From Candidatus Latescibacterota bacterium (lineage in GTDB: Bacteria; Latescibacterota; UBA2968; GCA-2709665), in NCBI GenBank assembly GCA_030746455.1, contig JASLMQ010000945.1, positions 1-9,284 on the forward strand: 9,284 nt of DNA, in the 5' to 3' direction. Positions 2,780 through 9,267 of this stretch are shown here, one piece after another. Made by a program: the position numbers and the translations under genes. Below the pieces are notes generated by a model, which made no database searches, had not been told where the DNA came from, and saw only the letters and a program-made list of their open reading frames with translations. The stretch's first letter is position 1. Every line of letters begins with the position of its first letter.

Positions 2780-5700
2780 TCACGCTTCGCTCCCCGCGCC
2801 CTTTCCTCTCGCCTGAAACATCAGATACAGCAACGGAAGCACGAACAAGGTGAGTGCCGTTGAGGTCAGCACGCCGCCCACCACCACGGTTGCCAGCGGC
2901 CGCTGGACCTCGGACCCGACGCCTGTGGAAATCGCCATCGGCACGAAGCCCGCGGCATCCGTAACGGCGGTGGCGAGGACGGGGCGCAGCCGCTGCATGG
3001 CGGCGCCGGTGACGGATTCCTTGAGCGCGTTCCCCCGGTCGAGGAAGCTGCGGATCGCGGTGACCATGATCTGGCCGTTCAGGACCGCGATGCCGGACAA
3101 CGCGATGAAGCCGATGGCCGCGCTGACGCTGAACGGCATCCCGCGCAGGGCCAGCGCGAATACGCCGCCGACCAGGGCGAAGGGGATACCCGTGTAGATC
3201 AGCAGCACCTCCCGGATGCGCTTCAGGCTCAGAAGAAGCAGGAAGAACACCATCAGGAGGGTGGCTGGAACGACGAGGGCCAGTCGGTCCCGAGCTCGTT
3301 CGAGATTCTCGAACTGGCCGCCCCATTCGATGATGTAGCCCGTGGGCAGGTGGACATCGGCTGCGATGCGTTTCCGGGCTTCGTCGATAAACGACGTCAC
3401 GTCTCGCCCCACGACATTACACTGCACTCGCATGACCCGTCGCCCCCACTCCCGGTTGATGGTGGACACCCCGGTCGTGTCCTGGATCGACGCCAGCATC
3501 CGGAGCGGGATGCGCTGGCCGCTCTCCGTCGAAACCGGCATCTTCTCGAGAAGCCGGGGATTACGTCGGTAGTCGTCGGGCAGCCGCACCGCCAGGTCGA
3601 AGCGGCGCTGGCCTTCATACACCTCGCCCACGTGATGCCCCCCGACGGCCTCCACGAACTCCAGCACGTGCCCGGCCGGCACGCCGTGGCGGGCAAGGGC
3701 CGGCTGGTCCACCACCACGCGAAGTAGCGGCTGGCCCGTCAACTGATCGGCGGCGATGTCTGATTGGCCGGGAGTCTGCAGAAGCACGCGCTGAATGTCG
3801 TCGCTGATCCTCACCAGTTCCTCGAAATCGTCCCCGTAGATCTTGATGCCCAGGTCCGACCGGATGCCGGAGATCATCTCGTTGAGCCGCATCTCGATCG
3901 GTTGGGTGAAGACCATGTTCAGGCCGGGAAGGTCGGCGAGTTCTTCCTGCATGGCGGCCACAAGCTCGGCCTGACTCTCGGCACGCGTCCACCTCCCACG
4001 GGGGGTGAGGGATACGAAGATGTCCGTCAGCTCCGTTCCCATTGGGTCGGTGGCCACTTCGGCGGTCCCGATACGGCTCCACACGTGCCGCACTTCATCT
4101 GGAAACGCTCCCCGCAGAATGCGTTCGATGCGCGTGTTGTAGTCCACCGACTGCTCGATGGAAACGCCCGCCAGGCGGATCGTATTGATGGTGACCGACC
4201 CTTCACTCAACCGCGGAATGAACTCGCCCCCCAGCCTCATCGCTTGCCAGCCGGTTAGCGCCAGCAGTAGGACCACCCCGCCCAGCACAGCCGACCGGTG
4301 GCGAGCCGCCAGGTCGAGCAGACGTCCGTATGACGGAACGACCCACCGTTCCAACGGGTCCTTCCGGCGGCTTTCCCGTTCCGGCAGGAAGATGCTACCC
4401 AGGACCGGCGACAGCGTGAGGGAGATCACCAGCGCGGCCAGCAGCGCAAACATGAAGGTCCAGGCCATCGGCTTGAACATCTTCCCCTCGATGCCCTGAA
4501 GCGTCAGAATCGGCAGGAAAACGATCAGGATGATGCCGATGCCGAACGTGATAGGGCGCGCCATCTCCCTTCCCGAGGCGATGATCGTGTCCGCACGCTC
4601 CTTCGCCGTCAACGGCCTGCCAAGCGCTCGCGAACGTTCCGAGAGGTTGCGTATATTCGCCTCCGTCATCACCACCGACCCGTCGATGATAATGCCGAAG
4701 TCGATGGCGCCGAGGCTCAGCAGACTGGCCACGATGGCGAACTCGTACATCCCAAGCACTGCGAACAGCATCGCCACAGGGATTACGAGGGCGACCAGCA
4801 TCCCCGCACGAAGGTTCCCCAGGAGTACGAATAGAACCAGCACAACCAGTACCGCGCCCGCCGCCAGATTGTGCTCGACCGTTTGGATGACCGAGCGGGT
4901 CAGCTCCGTTCGCTCGTACACGATCTCGACGATCACATCGTCGGGCAGGAACGGCCGAACGTTGTCCAACTGGGCTTTCAGGCGTTCGGTGACCCCCTTG
5001 CCATTTTCCCCCATCAGCATGAATGCGAGACCCAGCACCACTTCTCCTCGGCCGTCGGCCGTCACGGCGCCCCGGCGGATTTCTCGGTCGATCCTCACCT
5101 CCTCGGCCACGTCCTGGATGCGGACGGGATTGCCGGCATAGGAAGCGACCACCACGCCTTCGATATCCTCGATGTTCGACACCCGGCCAACGCCCTGCAC
5201 GAGCTGAGACCATCCGCCGGATGTGATGACCCCTCCGCCCACGTTCCGGTTGTTCGCTTCGAGCGCCTCATAAACGTCATCCAGCGTCAGCTCATACTTG
5301 ACGAGGGCCTCCGGCGAGACCACCACGTGGTACTGGCGGACATCGCCGCCCCAGGAATTCACCTCCGCCACGCCCGGTACCTTCCGCAGTTCCGGCTTCA
5401 CCACCCAATCGTGGAGGGTTCGCAGTTCCCCGAGGCTGCGAGCGGGGTTCTCGGACCGAAGGACATAGTGAAAGATCTCACCCAGGCCGGTGGAGATGGG
5501 GCCCAGCTGAGGGCGCTGGATGCCCAGCGGGAGCTCCACGCCGCTGATCCGTTCGGAGATGTACTGCCGCGCCACCGTAATCTCCGTGGCGTCGTCGAAC
5601 GTCGCCACCACCTGGGAAAAGCCGAACTTCGACACGGAGCGAACGTCGACCAGACCCGGCAGCCCCCCAATGGATAGCTCGACGGGAAGCGTGATCTGCT

Positions 5701-5887
5701 GCTCGATCTCCTCGGGACTCAGGGCCGGAGCAACGGTGTTGATCTGAACCTGGACCGGTGTGGTGTCCGGAAACGCATCCACCGGCAGATGAACCAGGCA
5801 CCAGGCACCGACTGCAATTCCGCCAGCGAACAGGAGCAGGACCAGGAGCCTGTTCCGGACCGCGTACTCGACGATATGTCCTAACAT
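2780..5887 (-). CDS. czcA: CzcA-family heavy-metal RND efflux pump
   Basis: Inner-membrane proton-driven pump of the heavy-metal-efflux RND family, the engine of a CBA complex. 1035 residues is the usual length. It has a first membrane helix at about 11-33, then VHLPVDAFPDTTPVQVQINT typical of the family, two periplasmic porter loops (about 40-335 and 555-870), and clusters of membrane helices at about 340-500 and 870-1025. The proton-relay motif in helix 4 is complete: DFGIIIDGSVVMTE with Asp396, Asp402 and Glu409, spaced as in CzcA. Near 559-576 (EFIPRLSEGSVTINTIRLAG) the position where CusA carries its first copper-binding Met is not Met, which argues for divalent ions (Zn, Co, Cd or Ni) over Cu/Ag. 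The start at 5887 follows GAGG (5893-5896) and lies 30 nt after the adaptor stop, so the gene is cotranscribed. The exact substrate is not determinable. Confidence 0.96.
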   Translation of the reverse strand: MLGHIVEYAVRNRLLVLLLFAGGIAVGAWCLVHLPVDAFPDTTPVQVQINTVAPALSPEEIEQQITLPVELSIGGLPGLVDVRSVSKFGFSQVVATFDDATEITVARQYISERISGVELPLGIQRPQLGPISTGLGEIFHYVLRSENPARSLGELRTLHDWVVKPELRKVPGVAEVNSWGGDVRQYHVVVSPEALVKYELTLDDVYEALEANNRNVGGGVITSGGWSQLVQGVGRVSNIEDIEGVVVASYAGNPVRIQDVAEEVRIDREIRRGAVTADGRGEVVLGLAFMLMGENGKGVTERLKAQLDNVRPFLPDDVIVEIVYERTELTRSVIQTVEHNLAAGAVLVVLVLFVLLGNLRAGMLVALVIPVAMLFAVLGMYEFAIVASLLSLGAIDFGIIIDGSVVMTEANIRNLSERSRALGRPLTAKERADTIIASGREMARPITFGIGIILIVFLPILTLQGIEGKMFKPMAWTFMFALLAALVISLTLSPVLGSIFLPERESRRKDPLERWVVPSYGRLLDLAARHRSAVLGGVVLLLALTGWQAMRLGGEFIPRLSEGSVTINTIRLAGVSIEQSVDYNTRIERILRGAFPDEVRHVWSRIGTAEVATDPMGTELTDIFVSLTPRGRWTRAESQAELVAAMQEELADLPGLNMVFTQPIEMRLNEMISGIRSDLGIKIYGDDFEELVRISDDIQRVLLQTPGQSDIAADQLTGQPLLRVVVDQPALARHGVPAGHVLEFVEAVGGHHVGEVYEGQRRFDLAVRLPDDYRRNPRLLEKMPVSTESGQRIPLRMLASIQDTTGVSTINREWGRRVMRVQCNVVGRDVTSFIDEARKRIAADVHLPTGYIIEWGGQFENLERARDRLALVVPATLLMVFFLLLLSLKRIREVLLIYTGIPFALVGGVFALALRGMPFSVSAAIGFIALSGIAVLNGQIMVTAIRSFLDRGNALKESVTGAAMQRLRPVLATAVTDAAGFVPMAISTGVGSEVQRPLATVVVGGVLTSTALTLFVLPLLYLMFQARGKGAGSEA

Positions 5888-5917: not shown

Positions 5918-7489
5918 TCAATCGTCCACGCAGCCCGCGCCCAGACGGGACTTGAGGAACTCAGACATCACGAGGACTCCCGATGCCACAACCGCCTCGT
6001 CGGGATGCAGACCTGACAGGATCTCGGTCGTGTTCGCCGCGGCGGTGCCCACGGTCACGCGCCTCAGCGCGAAGAGGTCCGGTTCCCTGCGCACGAAAAC
6101 GTAGGGATGGCGCTCGTGGTACTGGACCGCTTCGCTCGGCACGAGCACACCGGGCACGGTCAAACCAGTGAATACCTTCGCGCGCCCGAACATGCCGGCC
6201 TTCACCCGGCCGACGTCGTGCGTGGTCACCGCCCTCGCGCGTACCAGCCGCGTCCGTGGATCCACCGCGGCATCCACCCAGGCGAGTTCCCCCCGTACCT
6301 CCTCACCGGGAAGATCGTCGAACTCGACTGATACCGGCTGCCCCACGCGGATGTCCTGCAGACGGTCTGCCGGAAGGGACAGCGTCAGCCATCGGCTCGA
6401 GAGGTCTGTGAGCGTAAACAGTGCTTCGCCAGACGCCACCGCCTGCCCCGCAACGGCGGTACGATCGGTCAAGGTGCCGCTGAAGGGGGCGCGAAGCGTG
6501 TACGTCGCGGATGCATCGTCGGAACGCTCGATCTCCGCGATCGCTTCGGCCGACAAGCCAAGATTGACGAGCATCTGGCGGGTGCTCCGGGCGTCGAGCC
6601 GGGCTACTCGGTAGTCCGCTTCCGCCTGCAGCAGATCCTTCCGTGCGCCGATGCTCTCCTTCGCAAGATTCCGTTCCCGTTCGAACGTCTGCTTCCGGAT
6701 ATCACGGTTGACCAGGGCCGCCAGATACCCGCTCTTGGCGCGGGCGACCTCTGCGGAATGTAGCTCCGCGAGAAGCTCGCCAGCCTCTACGCGATCCCCG
6801 ACGTCCACGGCAACCCGGACTATGATCCCCGACGTCAACGGCGTGATCCGGGTCATCGCATTGCGGTTGTAGTCCGCCTCGCAGAGCGCCTCCACCCCGG
6901 GCATCAGCTCGCTGCGGCGTGGCCTCTCGATTCGAACCCCTGCCTTAGATGCGGAGTTCGCAGAAGGCATCCGCACCAGCAGGCTCTGTCCCGGTTCGAG
7001 TGAAGAGGCCAGTCCCGGCTGGCAGATACCGCACTCGCTCTCTGCCACCATGTGCTCATTGCAGAACAAGACGGATCCGGTGGCCTGGGACGGCGCGCCT
7101 GCAGCGTTTCCGGTTGATGGCGTCTTCACCTCAGGACGGCACAAGTGACATTCGTCCTCATACAGGAAGTGCTCGTTACAGTACGGCCTGCCCTTGTCCT
7201 GCAGCTCCGGGTGGCAGAGCCAGCACCGATCTTCGTAGCGCCCGTGTTCCTTGCACCACAGCCGGCCCTTCTCCCGCTTTGTGGGATCGCATATGAAGCA
7301 TGTCTCGCCGTCTTTCGCATGTACGTGGGCAACCTTGGTAACGATGCCACTGCTATGCTCGTCTTTGCCGACTGCTTCCGAACCCGAATCGCTGCAAGCT
7401 GCAAGCGCTGTCATTGTGAAGATGACCGCCGTCACGACCACGCATCGGGCCGTGGTCCGACTCACGCTGTAATGGTGTTTCGAGGGCAT
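5918..7489 (-). CDS. czcB: CzcB-type periplasmic adaptor lipoprotein with tandem Cys/His repeats
   Basis: Membrane-fusion subunit linking the RND pump to the outer-membrane channel; 523 residues, longer than the usual 380-420. Residues 14-32 form a lipoprotein signal ending in the lipobox LAAC (Cys32). Residues 64-160 hold a repeat module: CxxC at 64/67, 89/92, 114/117 and 153/156, each followed by x-P, and CxEH at 79-82, 104-107 and 143-146. The unit is 25 residues long, with a 14-residue insertion in the third. Eleven Cys and three His suggest several zinc-ribbon-like metal sites. The usual adaptor follows: lipoyl/barrel-sandwich halves (about 211-245 and 330-362, PLTSGIIVRVAVDVGDRVEA and APFSGTL), a helical hairpin (246-328), a beta-barrel (365-440) and a membrane-proximal domain (445-515). 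The start at 7489 was chosen over 7558 because GGAGG lies 5 nt upstream and a signal peptide follows at once. Confidence 0.94.
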   Translation of the reverse strand: MPSKHHYSVSRTTARCVVVTAVIFTMTALAACSDSGSEAVGKDEHSSGIVTKVAHVHAKDGETCFICDPTKREKGRLWCKEHGRYEDRCWLCHPELQDKGRPYCNEHFLYEDECHLCRPEVKTPSTGNAAGAPSQATGSVLFCNEHMVAESECGICQPGLASSLEPGQSLLVRMPSANSASKAGVRIERPRRSELMPGVEALCEADYNRNAMTRITPLTSGIIVRVAVDVGDRVEAGELLAELHSAEVARAKSGYLAALVNRDIRKQTFERERNLAKESIGARKDLLQAEADYRVARLDARSTRQMLVNLGLSAEAIAEIERSDDASATYTLRAPFSGTLTDRTAVAGQAVASGEALFTLTDLSSRWLTLSLPADRLQDIRVGQPVSVEFDDLPGEEVRGELAWVDAAVDPRTRLVRARAVTTHDVGRVKAGMFGRAKVFTGLTVPGVLVPSEAVQYHERHPYVFVRREPDLFALRRVTVGTAAANTTEILSGLHPDEAVVASGVLVMSEFLKSRLGAGCVDD

Positions 7490-7520: not shown

Positions 7521-8774
7521 TCAAAGGGATCCTCCAACTGCCCGTTCCAGTTCGGCACGGGATCGATGGTAGTCGAACAGAGCTTCGGTATGGGCGATTC
7601 GTGCCTCTATCAGCGTCCTTCGTGCCTCCAGGACCTCCAGGTAGGAAGCCTTTCCCTGTCGGTAGTTCTCAGAGGCGGCTTGGCCTGCGGCTTCTGCCAG
7701 CTTAAGCACCCCGGACTCGAGAACCTTGACCCTGTTGCGCGCGGCCTCAAGAGCGGCGTGGCTCGACACCACTTCGCCAAGCGCCTCCTGCTTCAGATTC
7801 TCGTGTTCGGCTTCTGCCTGGCGTGCTTCGGCACTCGCAACCGACACCTCACCTCGCTGCCGGAACGGTGCCCAGATCGGGATCTCGATCCCGAACGTGG
7901 TCCTCCAGGACGAGGATCGTGTACCGGGTTCCCCTATCGTCTGCCGGGACACCCCCAGACTCAAACCCGGGAGTAGCGCCGCAATGGTCTCCGACCTGGA
8001 TAGACGGGCACGCGACAGGGCATGCTGGGCACCCCGCAGGTCGGGTCGCTGATCCAGGGCTTTACGCTTAAGCGTTTCTAGCTCGTAAGAGGTCGTATCC
8101 ACTTGCAGTTCTCCGACGACTTCGATGGGAGCCGACCCATCACGACCGAGGACCATCGCCAGAGAGGCTCTCGACGCTGCAAGCGCCGCTGTTGCCTCGG
8201 CCACTGCGTTCTCCGATAGGCCGACCTGGACCTCCGATCTCATCACCTCCAGACGAGGGACGTCGCCGGCATCGAACCGAGTGCGGGACTTCGCAGCAAG
8301 GTCCTTCGCCAAGAGCAGATTCTCCTCGGCGGCGGCCACGATCTTTCGATCAGCGAGGACGCGGTCGAAAGCCACGCTTACCTCAGCCTCGACGTCGAGT
8401 CGAGTGGTCTCATAGGCTGAGAATCGAACGGACTCTGCGCCCTGCGCTGAGGCGCGCTGACGGTACCACCACTTGAGAGGCCATTCGATCCGCTGAGTGA
8501 TGCCGATGCTCCGCTCGCCGTACTGCCCGATATCAAACACGCCGGGCAATTCCTCGTACTCGATCTCGAGCTCGGGATCTTCCGGAGCCAGCGCGATCAG
8601 CTTACGAGACCTCGCCGCCTGCCATTCCGCGTATGCCGCGGCTACCCTCGGATTTGACTCAAGGGCGAACTCCACAGCTTGGCCACGTGTCAGCTGACGC
8701 GACCCCGCACACACCGACTGCAGCGGCACGGAAACGAGAAAGATGCAGATGTAGATGGAATGAATCAGATGCAT
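7521..8774 (-). CDS. czcC: CzcC/TolC-family outer-membrane efflux factor
   Basis: Outer-membrane channel of the metal-efflux complex, forming a trimeric tunnel docking on the adaptor. 417 residues, normal for CzcC. A signal peptide covers about residues 1-23 (hydrophobic IYICIFLVSVPLQ, likely cleavage after VCA). Cys22 is not in a good lipobox, so signal peptidase I processing is more likely. Mature features are LTRGQAVEFALESNPRVAAA at 28-47, typical of this family, and two related long-helix repeats. The first includes SRTRFDAGDVPRLEVMRSEV (163-182); the second includes SENYRQGKASYLEVLEARRT (368-387) and ends ALFDYHRSRAELERAVG. The strand ITQRIEWPLKWWYRQRA is typical of CzcC-type proteins. 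The ATG at 8774 follows GGAGG with a 5-6 nt spacing. The gene ends 31 nt before the adaptor start, consistent with one operon. Confidence 0.93.
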   Translation of the reverse strand: MHLIHSIYICIFLVSVPLQSVCAGSRQLTRGQAVEFALESNPRVAAAYAEWQAARSRKLIALAPEDPELEIEYEELPGVFDIGQYGERSIGITQRIEWPLKWWYRQRASAQGAESVRFSAYETTRLDVEAEVSVAFDRVLADRKIVAAAEENLLLAKDLAAKSRTRFDAGDVPRLEVMRSEVQVGLSENAVAEATAALAASRASLAMVLGRDGSAPIEVVGELQVDTTSYELETLKRKALDQRPDLRGAQHALSRARLSRSETIAALLPGLSLGVSRQTIGEPGTRSSSWRTTFGIEIPIWAPFRQRGEVSVASAEARQAEAEHENLKQEALGEVVSSHAALEAARNRVKVLESGVLKLAEAAGQAASENYRQGKASYLEVLEARRTLIEARIAHTEALFDYHRSRAELERAVGGSL

Positions 8775-8865: not shown

Positions 8866-9267
8866 TCAGATGAGGAGGACAGTACTTTGCAGATGAATAG
8901 GGAGGGATCGTGTGGCTAAACTCTCAGTGTTGCGAAGTATGAATCCGGGATCAGCCGGGTTGACGGAATGCCGGGTGTCTGACACTGCGGGCGCAAAGCA
9001 GAGCCGGCTGACGTCCTTTATCCCAGGCGTATGGGGACCGACATCGGTCTGGAAGGCAAGGTCTATGCACTCACGGCAGTCATCGCCGGATGAGGACTGC
9101 GCGGCTGCCGAATCGAGGGCGCACCGGCCATCCGGTCCTGCGGGCTCGATGTGCGTGTTGCCGGCTTGCTCGACACAGACCACGAAGGCGCCTGCCGGTC
9201 CATATGACACAAAGAGTGCCAAGATCAGCCAGATCAGCGTGATCAGTCTGTGGAAGGAGTGCCTCAT
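8866..9267 (-). CDS. Small secreted Cys-containing protein, first gene of the metal-efflux block
   Basis: 133 residues, function unknown. A clear signal peptide spans about residues 1-27 (LITLIWLILALFVSYGPAGA, likely cut after AGA), so it is exported to the periplasm. The mature part contains five Cys (31, 49, 64, 67, 90), including a CxxC in DDCRECIDL, and a VVCVEQAGNTHIEPAG segment. Small exported proteins of this layout (VCV-x-GH-x-E near the N terminus, then C, then CxxC-D) are familiar to me from heavy-metal RND loci, but I know of no assigned function. Its 91-bp distance from czcC and identical orientation suggest it belongs to the same unit. A periplasmic metal binder or chaperone is plausible but is inference. 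There is no Shine-Dalgarno sequence before 9267; the first 17 nt upstream are AT-rich. Confidence 0.75.
   Translation of the reverse strand: MRHSFHRLITLIWLILALFVSYGPAGAFVVCVEQAGNTHIEPAGPDGRCALDSAAAQSSSGDDCRECIDLAFQTDVGPHTPGIKDVSRLCFAPAVSDTRHSVNPADPGFILRNTESLATRSLPIHLQSTVLLI

Follow-up and report, generated by a model that had tools for sequence, protein, structure and literature searches.

The window, by which we mean the whole stretch of 9,284 nucleotides analysed here (Candidatus Latescibacterota bacterium, contig JASLMQ010000945.1), carries on its minus strand a three-gene heavy-metal efflux operon encoding an outer-membrane factor (8774..7521), a periplasmic adaptor (7489..5918) and a CusA/CzcA-type permease (5887..2780). 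The outer-membrane factor is TolC/CzcC-like (OEP, E 2.7e-44), and the permease scored 1143.7 bits against TIGR00914 (cut-off 701.45), which identifies it as a heavy-metal RND permease. The adaptor, 523 residues long from its ATG with an alternative GTG start possible at 7558, matched both HlyD_D23 (146.4 bits, cut-off 30) and TIGR01730 (163.9 bits, cut-off 94.9), placing it among the RND periplasmic adaptors. Against TIGR00999, the CzcB/NccB family, it reached 142.6 bits, under the subfamily cut-off of 319.3, and for this reason it is called CzcB-like rather than CzcB proper. It begins with a signal peptide (predicted helix at residues 11-30) and a lipobox ending in LAAC32 (7394..7489), and near its C-terminus it has LGAGC, which contains the near-invariant Cys520 (5930..5944). 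The core of beta-barrel, lipoyl and hairpin domains occupies residues 198-510 (5960..6898), as placed by the HlyD_D23 and TIGR01730 matches and by ZneB (3lnn), the best PDB match of the adaptor by sequence and by fold.

Other features of the window were recorded alongside the operon. Among 80 homologous loci (see below), the best matches to the outer-membrane factor came from two Latescibacterota records (L001, 279 bits; L049, 205 bits). Upstream of its gene, the minus strand at 8866-9267 encodes a putative secreted protein of 133 residues with several cysteines, to which no Pfam or NCBIfam family matched; genes for weak relatives (E 7e-5 to 0.027) lie ahead of the outer-membrane factor gene in L001, L029 and L005, and ahead of the adaptor gene in L059. 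Downstream of the efflux operon, a minus-strand PIN-domain gene (1095-1828) is preceded by a VapB-like antitoxin candidate scoring below the Pfam cut-off, and the two likely form a VapBC-type pair. A 102-residue frame on the same strand (2197-2505) matches the first part only of a NAD-dependent epimerase family and is possibly a truncated gene.

Between the lipobox Cys32 and the adaptor core, which starts at about residue 198, lies a stretch of Cys/His repeats. An earlier note on this DNA had placed them at 7012-7310, corresponding to about residues 61-160, and every motif that it named is present in the ATG-started frame: C64-x2-C67-x-P, C79-x-E-H82, C89-x2-C92-x-P, C104-x-E-H107, C114-x2-C117-x-P, C143-x-E-H146 and C153-x2-C156-x-P. 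The spacing it described is likewise correct, with a period of 25 residues for the cysteines at 64, 89 and 114, a stretched interval from 114 to 153 (39, or 25+14) and an identical CxEH-x6-CxxC distance throughout. Its count of three units plus a half unit has to be revised, since an H55-x-H57 pair precedes C64 with the same x6 spacing and had been overlooked, so that the "half unit" is a complete site. As judged from the sequence, the adaptor carries four complete four-ligand sites, one His2Cys2-like and three Cys3His-like. Site 1 is a variant knuckle, H55-x-H57-x6-C64-x2-C67 (7289..7327), and is followed by site 2, C79-x-E-H82-x6-C89-x2-C92 (7214..7255), and site 3, C104-x-E-H107-x6-C114-x2-C117 (7139..7180). 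A variable linker (residues 120-138, 7076..7132), containing the 14-residue stretch, then leads to site 4, C143-x-E-H146-x6-C153-x2-C156 (7022..7063), which adjoins the core. The ligands of sites 2 and 3 are invariant in an 18-row alignment, and all four ligands of site 4 are invariant across an alignment of 27 sequences (the window and 26 loci selected because they have knuckles); the spacing from site 3 to site 4 differs among homologues. Several non-ligand residues, for example R76, W78, Y85 and E86, are conserved as strongly as the ligands in a set that, like the 18-row alignment, was picked by motif.

Homologues were collected in two ways. A search with the module (residues 55-170) found 1008 proteins at E <= 0.01 among 1033 candidates, the best 120 of which were listed, and a search with the core only (residues 160-523), which is blind to the repeats, gave 499 matches among 7998 candidates scored. 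The best 120 of these 499, a set found without the knuckles, comprise 109 proteins counted as having a long N-terminus and 11 with a short one. Exactly four CxxC motifs together with three or four CxxH motifs were present in 98 of the 109; the remaining 11 have six or seven CxxC (6 proteins), two or three (4 proteins) or none (1 protein). The last of these (P0135, 329 aa) looks like a fragment admitted by the length rule, and two of the four with two or three motifs (P0139, P0179) were clipped by that rule and otherwise have four units each. Repeated metal-site-like units between the lipid anchor and the core, as the earlier note described them, are therefore strongly conserved in homologues, and the Cys/His pattern lies far beyond chance. 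Within the long-N-terminus proteins the distance from CxxH to the next CxxC was 10 residues in 337 of 342 cases, whereas that from CxxC to the next CxxH was 15 in 224 cases and otherwise 20-84. Because the former is fixed and the latter variable, the repeating unit can be identified as the knuckle CxEH-x6-CxxC, with the linker as the varying part. Of the two registers that had been put forward, the knuckle is thus borne out, and the zinc-ribbon arrangement (CxxC...CxEH) is ruled out by its variable distance.

The repeats had also been read as the outcome of expansion by duplication. For the 25-residue unit this reading fails. When units 1-4 were compared between different proteins (99 proteins), mean identities were 60, 82, 82 and 75%, respectively, while the three regular units compared within one protein gave means of 63, 45 and 47%, the regular units being compared over 18 residues in both cases. 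A unit being more alike across proteins than between units of one protein, the units are old and position-specific; units 2 and 3 of the window share a DNA identity of only 54%, and together these values rule out a recent tandem expansion. Duplication does hold for a larger element, a block of three sites. Block pairs inside one protein reach up to 98% identity, indicating that some block duplications are recent. Counting non-overlapping blocks in 323 proteins (245 database proteins and 78 adaptor reading frames of loci, 320 distinct sequences), one block was present in 181, two in 109, three in 6 and none in 27. Among 424 block starts, which include 7 that overlap another block, 407 have HxH (211), HxH with x5 (93), CxxH (92) or CxH (11) as the pair before the first CxxC; the other 17 are of other types. 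The last knuckle, adjacent to the core, is usually single. Since it is the three-site block that expands, most adaptors seen have one to three blocks plus one core-side knuckle, and knuckled adaptors with blocks have from 4 to about 10 sites. Across all adaptors the number runs from 1 to about 10 at the same position, including adaptors with one strict knuckle such as the earlier note had mentioned. The database search with the module and the count of repeats that it had proposed thus found the Cys/His positions conserved and the number of units variable.

An AlphaFold2 model of the full adaptor (94 sequences) had a mean pLDDT of 85. Residues 51-60 averaged 68 and residues 61-120 lay between 76 and 84; the linker dropped below 50 at residues 124-137, and the last knuckle reached about 89. 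Each of the three regular units is predicted in this model as two short strands with a turn between them; in units 2 and 4 a helical turn comes next, which is absent in unit 3. The module modelled in isolation had a mean pLDDT of 70 and a pTM of only 0.39, and overall its fold is predicted with fair confidence. In Foldseek searches the full adaptor model matched ZneB and other adaptors, while the isolated module gave 0 matches against the PDB and 7 against BFVD, all with E above 2. The best hit of a PDB profile search, pyridoxal kinase (E 0.014), was taken as chance. Over the Cys/His stretch of the window adaptor nothing exceeded a Pfam cut-off, and nothing covered it among the best 25 of 31 NCBIfam matches listed for this protein. 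Known zinc-ribbon, zinc-finger and zinc-knuckle families gave sub-threshold Pfam and NCBIfam matches only in the proteins scanned, and a CusF-type beta-barrel domain was matched neither by Pfam, nor by PDB sequence, nor by Foldseek. A search of the open-access literature by title and abstract opening found no description of the knuckle motif or domain among the matches listed.

Of 101 loci from a scan of genome contigs, 80 were retained, mainly from Planctomycetota and Verrucomicrobiota, with Myxococcota, Latescibacterota and others. Wherever the contig was long enough, knuckled adaptor and permease were adjacent, often with the outer-membrane factor in front. Whole-genome profile searches, which scored only some first-look candidates per genome and whose counts take in the centre genomes, for which a match was known beforehand, found the module in 8 of 194 genomes in the phylum of a Verrucomicrobiae record, 34 of 199 in that of a planctomycete, 21 of 140 in that of a Kofleriaceae record and 2 of 148 in that of a Desulfobacteraceae record; none was found in the viral contigs searched. 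ArsR-family regulator genes occur in 38 of the 80 loci (E <= 1e-4, some weak) and lie within 3.5 kb of the knuckled adaptor in 42 of 116 loci, and homologues of heavy-metal P-type ATPases occur in 11 of the 80, the query's own included. On the planctomycete plasmid pK2D_1 the gene order is czcC, a small gene, czcB, czcA, a two-knuckle gene (hypothetical), two small genes, cadA, trxA and czcD. A thioredoxin-like protein, which could keep knuckle thiols reduced, is encoded close to knuckle genes in L120 (12664-13110, with a lipobox) and L096 (6937-7443). In L076 a P-II-family gene (13963-14271) lies directly behind the knuckle-associated permease and ahead of a metal P-type ATPase.

Some of the same operons encode small stand-alone knuckle proteins as well, mostly lipoprotein-like. 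A search with the module alone returned 24 proteins among 28 candidates. About 12 of them have the look of small, complete, secreted proteins, and most of these carry a lipobox; others are pieces of adaptors. Within the contig scan a separate knuckle gene was present in only 2 of the 80 loci: in L076 a gene for 126 residues ends 3 bases ahead of the knuckled adaptor, and in L004 the gene lies just upstream of it, near an ArsR-family regulator gene. Among 28 additional loci (L091-L118), whose selection relied partly on a second small match and whose adaptors have one strict knuckle or more, a two-knuckle reading frame lacking an adaptor core was found in 20. These comprise 12 of 16 loci from the planctomycete-phylum search, where the frame follows the permease gene or, in L103, the outer-membrane factor gene, 8 of 11 from the search in the phylum of the Kofleriaceae record, where it lies directly upstream of the adaptor, and 0 of 1 from that of the Desulfobacteraceae record. 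Most such frames are about 100-150 residues long; in L092, L100, L106 and L114 the listed frame is longer, with an uncertain start, and L113 has a 247-residue frame bearing two knuckles. In L107 the knuckle gene stands between outer-membrane factor and adaptor, which parallels the sil operon (L126), where silF is flanked by silC and silB. The only stand-alone knuckle gene inspected in an annotated record (L120) is annotated as hypothetical.

To the extent that the trees can be read, knuckled adaptors go together with a single clade of CzcA-type permeases, to which the window permease belongs. In one quick tree the knuckle-associated permeases fell on one side of a branch (64 against 5 rows), and in another 59 rows were separated with a branch support of 100 from 13, which include a SilA and plasmid CusA/CzcA-family pumps and carry a long-branch warning among the non-knuckled permeases. 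It was the knuckles themselves that led to nearly all knuckled rows, and the one-clade pattern is therefore partly ascertainment. Set against this is a plasmid search by permease alone, which matched 3737 records. Eight records from the best 55 (two overlapping lists) were inspected, a row with 53% identity at 22% query coverage being left out; the two systems above 50% permease identity (L119, L120) are knuckled and the six below 50% are not. The permease search thereby located distant knuckled systems on two planctomycete plasmids, and the plasmid search with the module itself gave no match. Permease residues H140, H159, H187, M407, M666 and M671, among nine such columns, are typical of the knuckle-associated clade and rare in the five others compared, a lead only, given 64 sequences against 5. 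M666 might conceivably stand in place of a ZneA zinc ligand. HME1 and HME2 permeases carry a DFG-x3-DGA-x3-VEN signature in TM4, according to the published description (PMC3637150). The window permease reads DFGIIIDGSVVMTEAN, a DFG-x3-DGS-x3-TEAN motif in which D, D and E are kept, DGA has become DGS and VEN has become TEAN. It thus keeps the acidic DFG/DG/E residues of divalent-metal pumps and not the full HME1/HME2 signature, and this departure makes its substrate unsure.

The knuckles are also associated with the opposite end of the adaptor. Among the 105 knuckled adaptors whose 3' ends are complete, 102 have a cysteine within the last 16 residues (101 as G[AGS][GS]C), compared with 0 of 16 non-knuckled ones; of the three knuckled exceptions, one has an unrelated ending, one contains undetermined letters and one ends at LGAG. 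Conversely, a His within the last six residues occurred in 13 of the 105 knuckled and 11 of the 16 non-knuckled adaptors. The rows of these comparisons are related and not independent. Aligned over 286 knuckled rows, the Cys520 column is C in 282 and the lipobox Cys32 column in 244. Cys203 in the first core strand (6881-6883) is C in 174 of the 286 and in 0 of 11 non-knuckled adaptors, and does not track Cys520.

Extra N- and C-terminal metal domains have been described for heavy-metal pump adaptors; according to a review (PMC4446572), SilB has a C-terminal CusF-like domain, CusF is a separate protein, and the CusB N-terminus binds metal via Met residues and can pass it to CusA. The knuckles resemble the Cu/Ag systems of SilB with CusF/SilF in that a metal domain comes in two forms, one fused to the adaptor and one a small separate protein whose gene accompanies those of the pump (PMC4446572). 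They differ in being N-terminal, in consisting of CxEH-x6-CxxC knuckles and in their block repeats, with no relation to CusF detected by sequence or fold. Like the metal-binding segment of CusB, the module precedes the adaptor core, but it has Cys/His knuckles that are predicted to be folded in place of the Met residues reported for CusB (PMC4446572). The His-rich tails of some CzcB-type adaptors occupy the same position and likely serve the same broad task. Several non-knuckled adaptors have such N-terminal tails, both in the same loci and on plasmids (L004, L027, L045, L122), and the tails are not universal among the 16 examined; they are low-complexity His/Asp/Glu segments, often on proteins with a His-ending C-terminus, whereas knuckled adaptors combine ordered knuckles with a C-terminal Cys. 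The non-knuckled adaptor of L067 has an N-terminal YHCPMHP, which we take to be HMBD-like and which is likewise an N-terminal Cys/His metal-type motif on an HME adaptor; the knuckle motif differs from it, and the Pfam matches listed for the window protein include none of this kind. The module is best read as a thiol-based periplasmic metal-handling device, analogous to CusF, the C-terminal domain of SilB and the N-terminus of CusB, and not detectably related to them.

We propose that the adaptor insert forms a lipid-anchored periplasmic array of four small metal sites on a flexible linker, the last packing against the adaptor core. The array would catch a soft or borderline divalent metal in the periplasm, Zn2+ or Cd2+ being the first guesses, and the metal would be passed along the adaptor to the CzcA-type permease, perhaps by way of the C-terminal Cys520. 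The stand-alone knuckle lipoproteins of the same operon may, in some lineages, take over or share the catching, in the way that CusF serves CusB. Metal binding, the identity of the metal, its reversible transfer as opposed to a structural role and the direction of its flow are inferred here, and we would give the full proposal of a catching and hand-over array about an even chance. What the analysis itself establishes is the site pattern with its register and conservation, the expansion by blocks, the stand-alone relatives near pump genes, and the links with one permease clade and with a C-terminal Cys; these findings, the neighbouring metal-resistance genes and the known extra metal domains of such adaptors speak for the proposal. 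Against it count the conserved non-ligand residues, the low pTM and missing PDB match of the isolated module, the rarity of separate knuckle genes in the contig scan and the departure of the permease motif from the HME1/HME2 signature. The main rival is that a permanent zinc folds each knuckle into a structural domain serving as a rigid spacer or docking surface, with no transport relay; the docking partner could be the permease, the outer-membrane factor or the stand-alone lipoprotein. Cys3His sites usually bind zinc too tightly for quick transfer, and the Cys3His ligands, the strongly conserved aromatic and charged residues around them and the small strand-turn-strand predicted for each of the three regular units are all what a structural zinc domain would lead one to expect. 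Non-ligand conservation, moreover, exceeds the need of a simple sponge, which fits a structural or docking role. However, a range of 1 to about 10 sites at the same position would be odd for a fixed docking surface, and Cys520 goes with the knuckles from the opposite terminus; on this evidence we consider a structural role unlikely, yet a serious contender.

An array that instead senses periplasmic metal and switches the pump on by reshaping the adaptor would suit the prediction of site 4 confidently beside the core with sites 1-3 on a flexible tether, and direct activation of CusA by CusB, reported in the same review (PMC4446572), offers a precedent. Nothing specific speaks against such a sensor or gate, beyond its having no need of as many as ten sites, and we regard it as improbable. 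Lower still is the likelihood that the CxxC pairs are oxidisable thiols in a redox or disulfide module and not metal ligands. CxxC motifs in an oxidising compartment invite this explanation, as does the thioredoxin-like gene found in the L120 plasmid cluster and close by in L096, but thioredoxin-like matches occurred in only 6 of 116 loci, some weak or distant, and the CxEH half is conserved as well as the CxxC half and at a fixed distance from it. That the "CWLCH" of site 2 is a CxxCH haem motif of a multihaem c-type cytochrome has next to no probability: C89-C92-H93 is the single CxxCH in the window module, and CxxC is followed by His in 0 of 323 first block units, in 191 of 323 second ones, in 145 of 323 third ones and in 14 of 204 last ones, Asp, Gln or Asn being common there instead. 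His is thus not conserved at this position, and a c-type cytochrome was rejected.

Taken together, the recurrence of the module in related pumps, and of small separate proteins beside some of them, suggests dedicated metal handling before export. More tentatively, and with rather less than an even chance in our estimation, the knuckle may be a previously undescribed periplasmic domain family that defines one clade of heavy-metal RND pumps and comes with a complete thiol-based delivery line, consisting of a stand-alone lipoprotein catcher, an adaptor block array tuned by duplication, a core-side knuckle and a permease-side C-terminal Cys. Periplasmic metal delivery to heavy-metal RND pumps is best understood for Cu/Ag, and if the delivery line is real it would be a separately evolved Cys/His counterpart of the Met-based CusF-CusB-CusA relay. 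With 1 to about 10 sites, fused or separate, the family lends itself to comparing site number, ligand type and pump clade across a natural series, in which the relay idea can be tested by setting site number against metal resistance.
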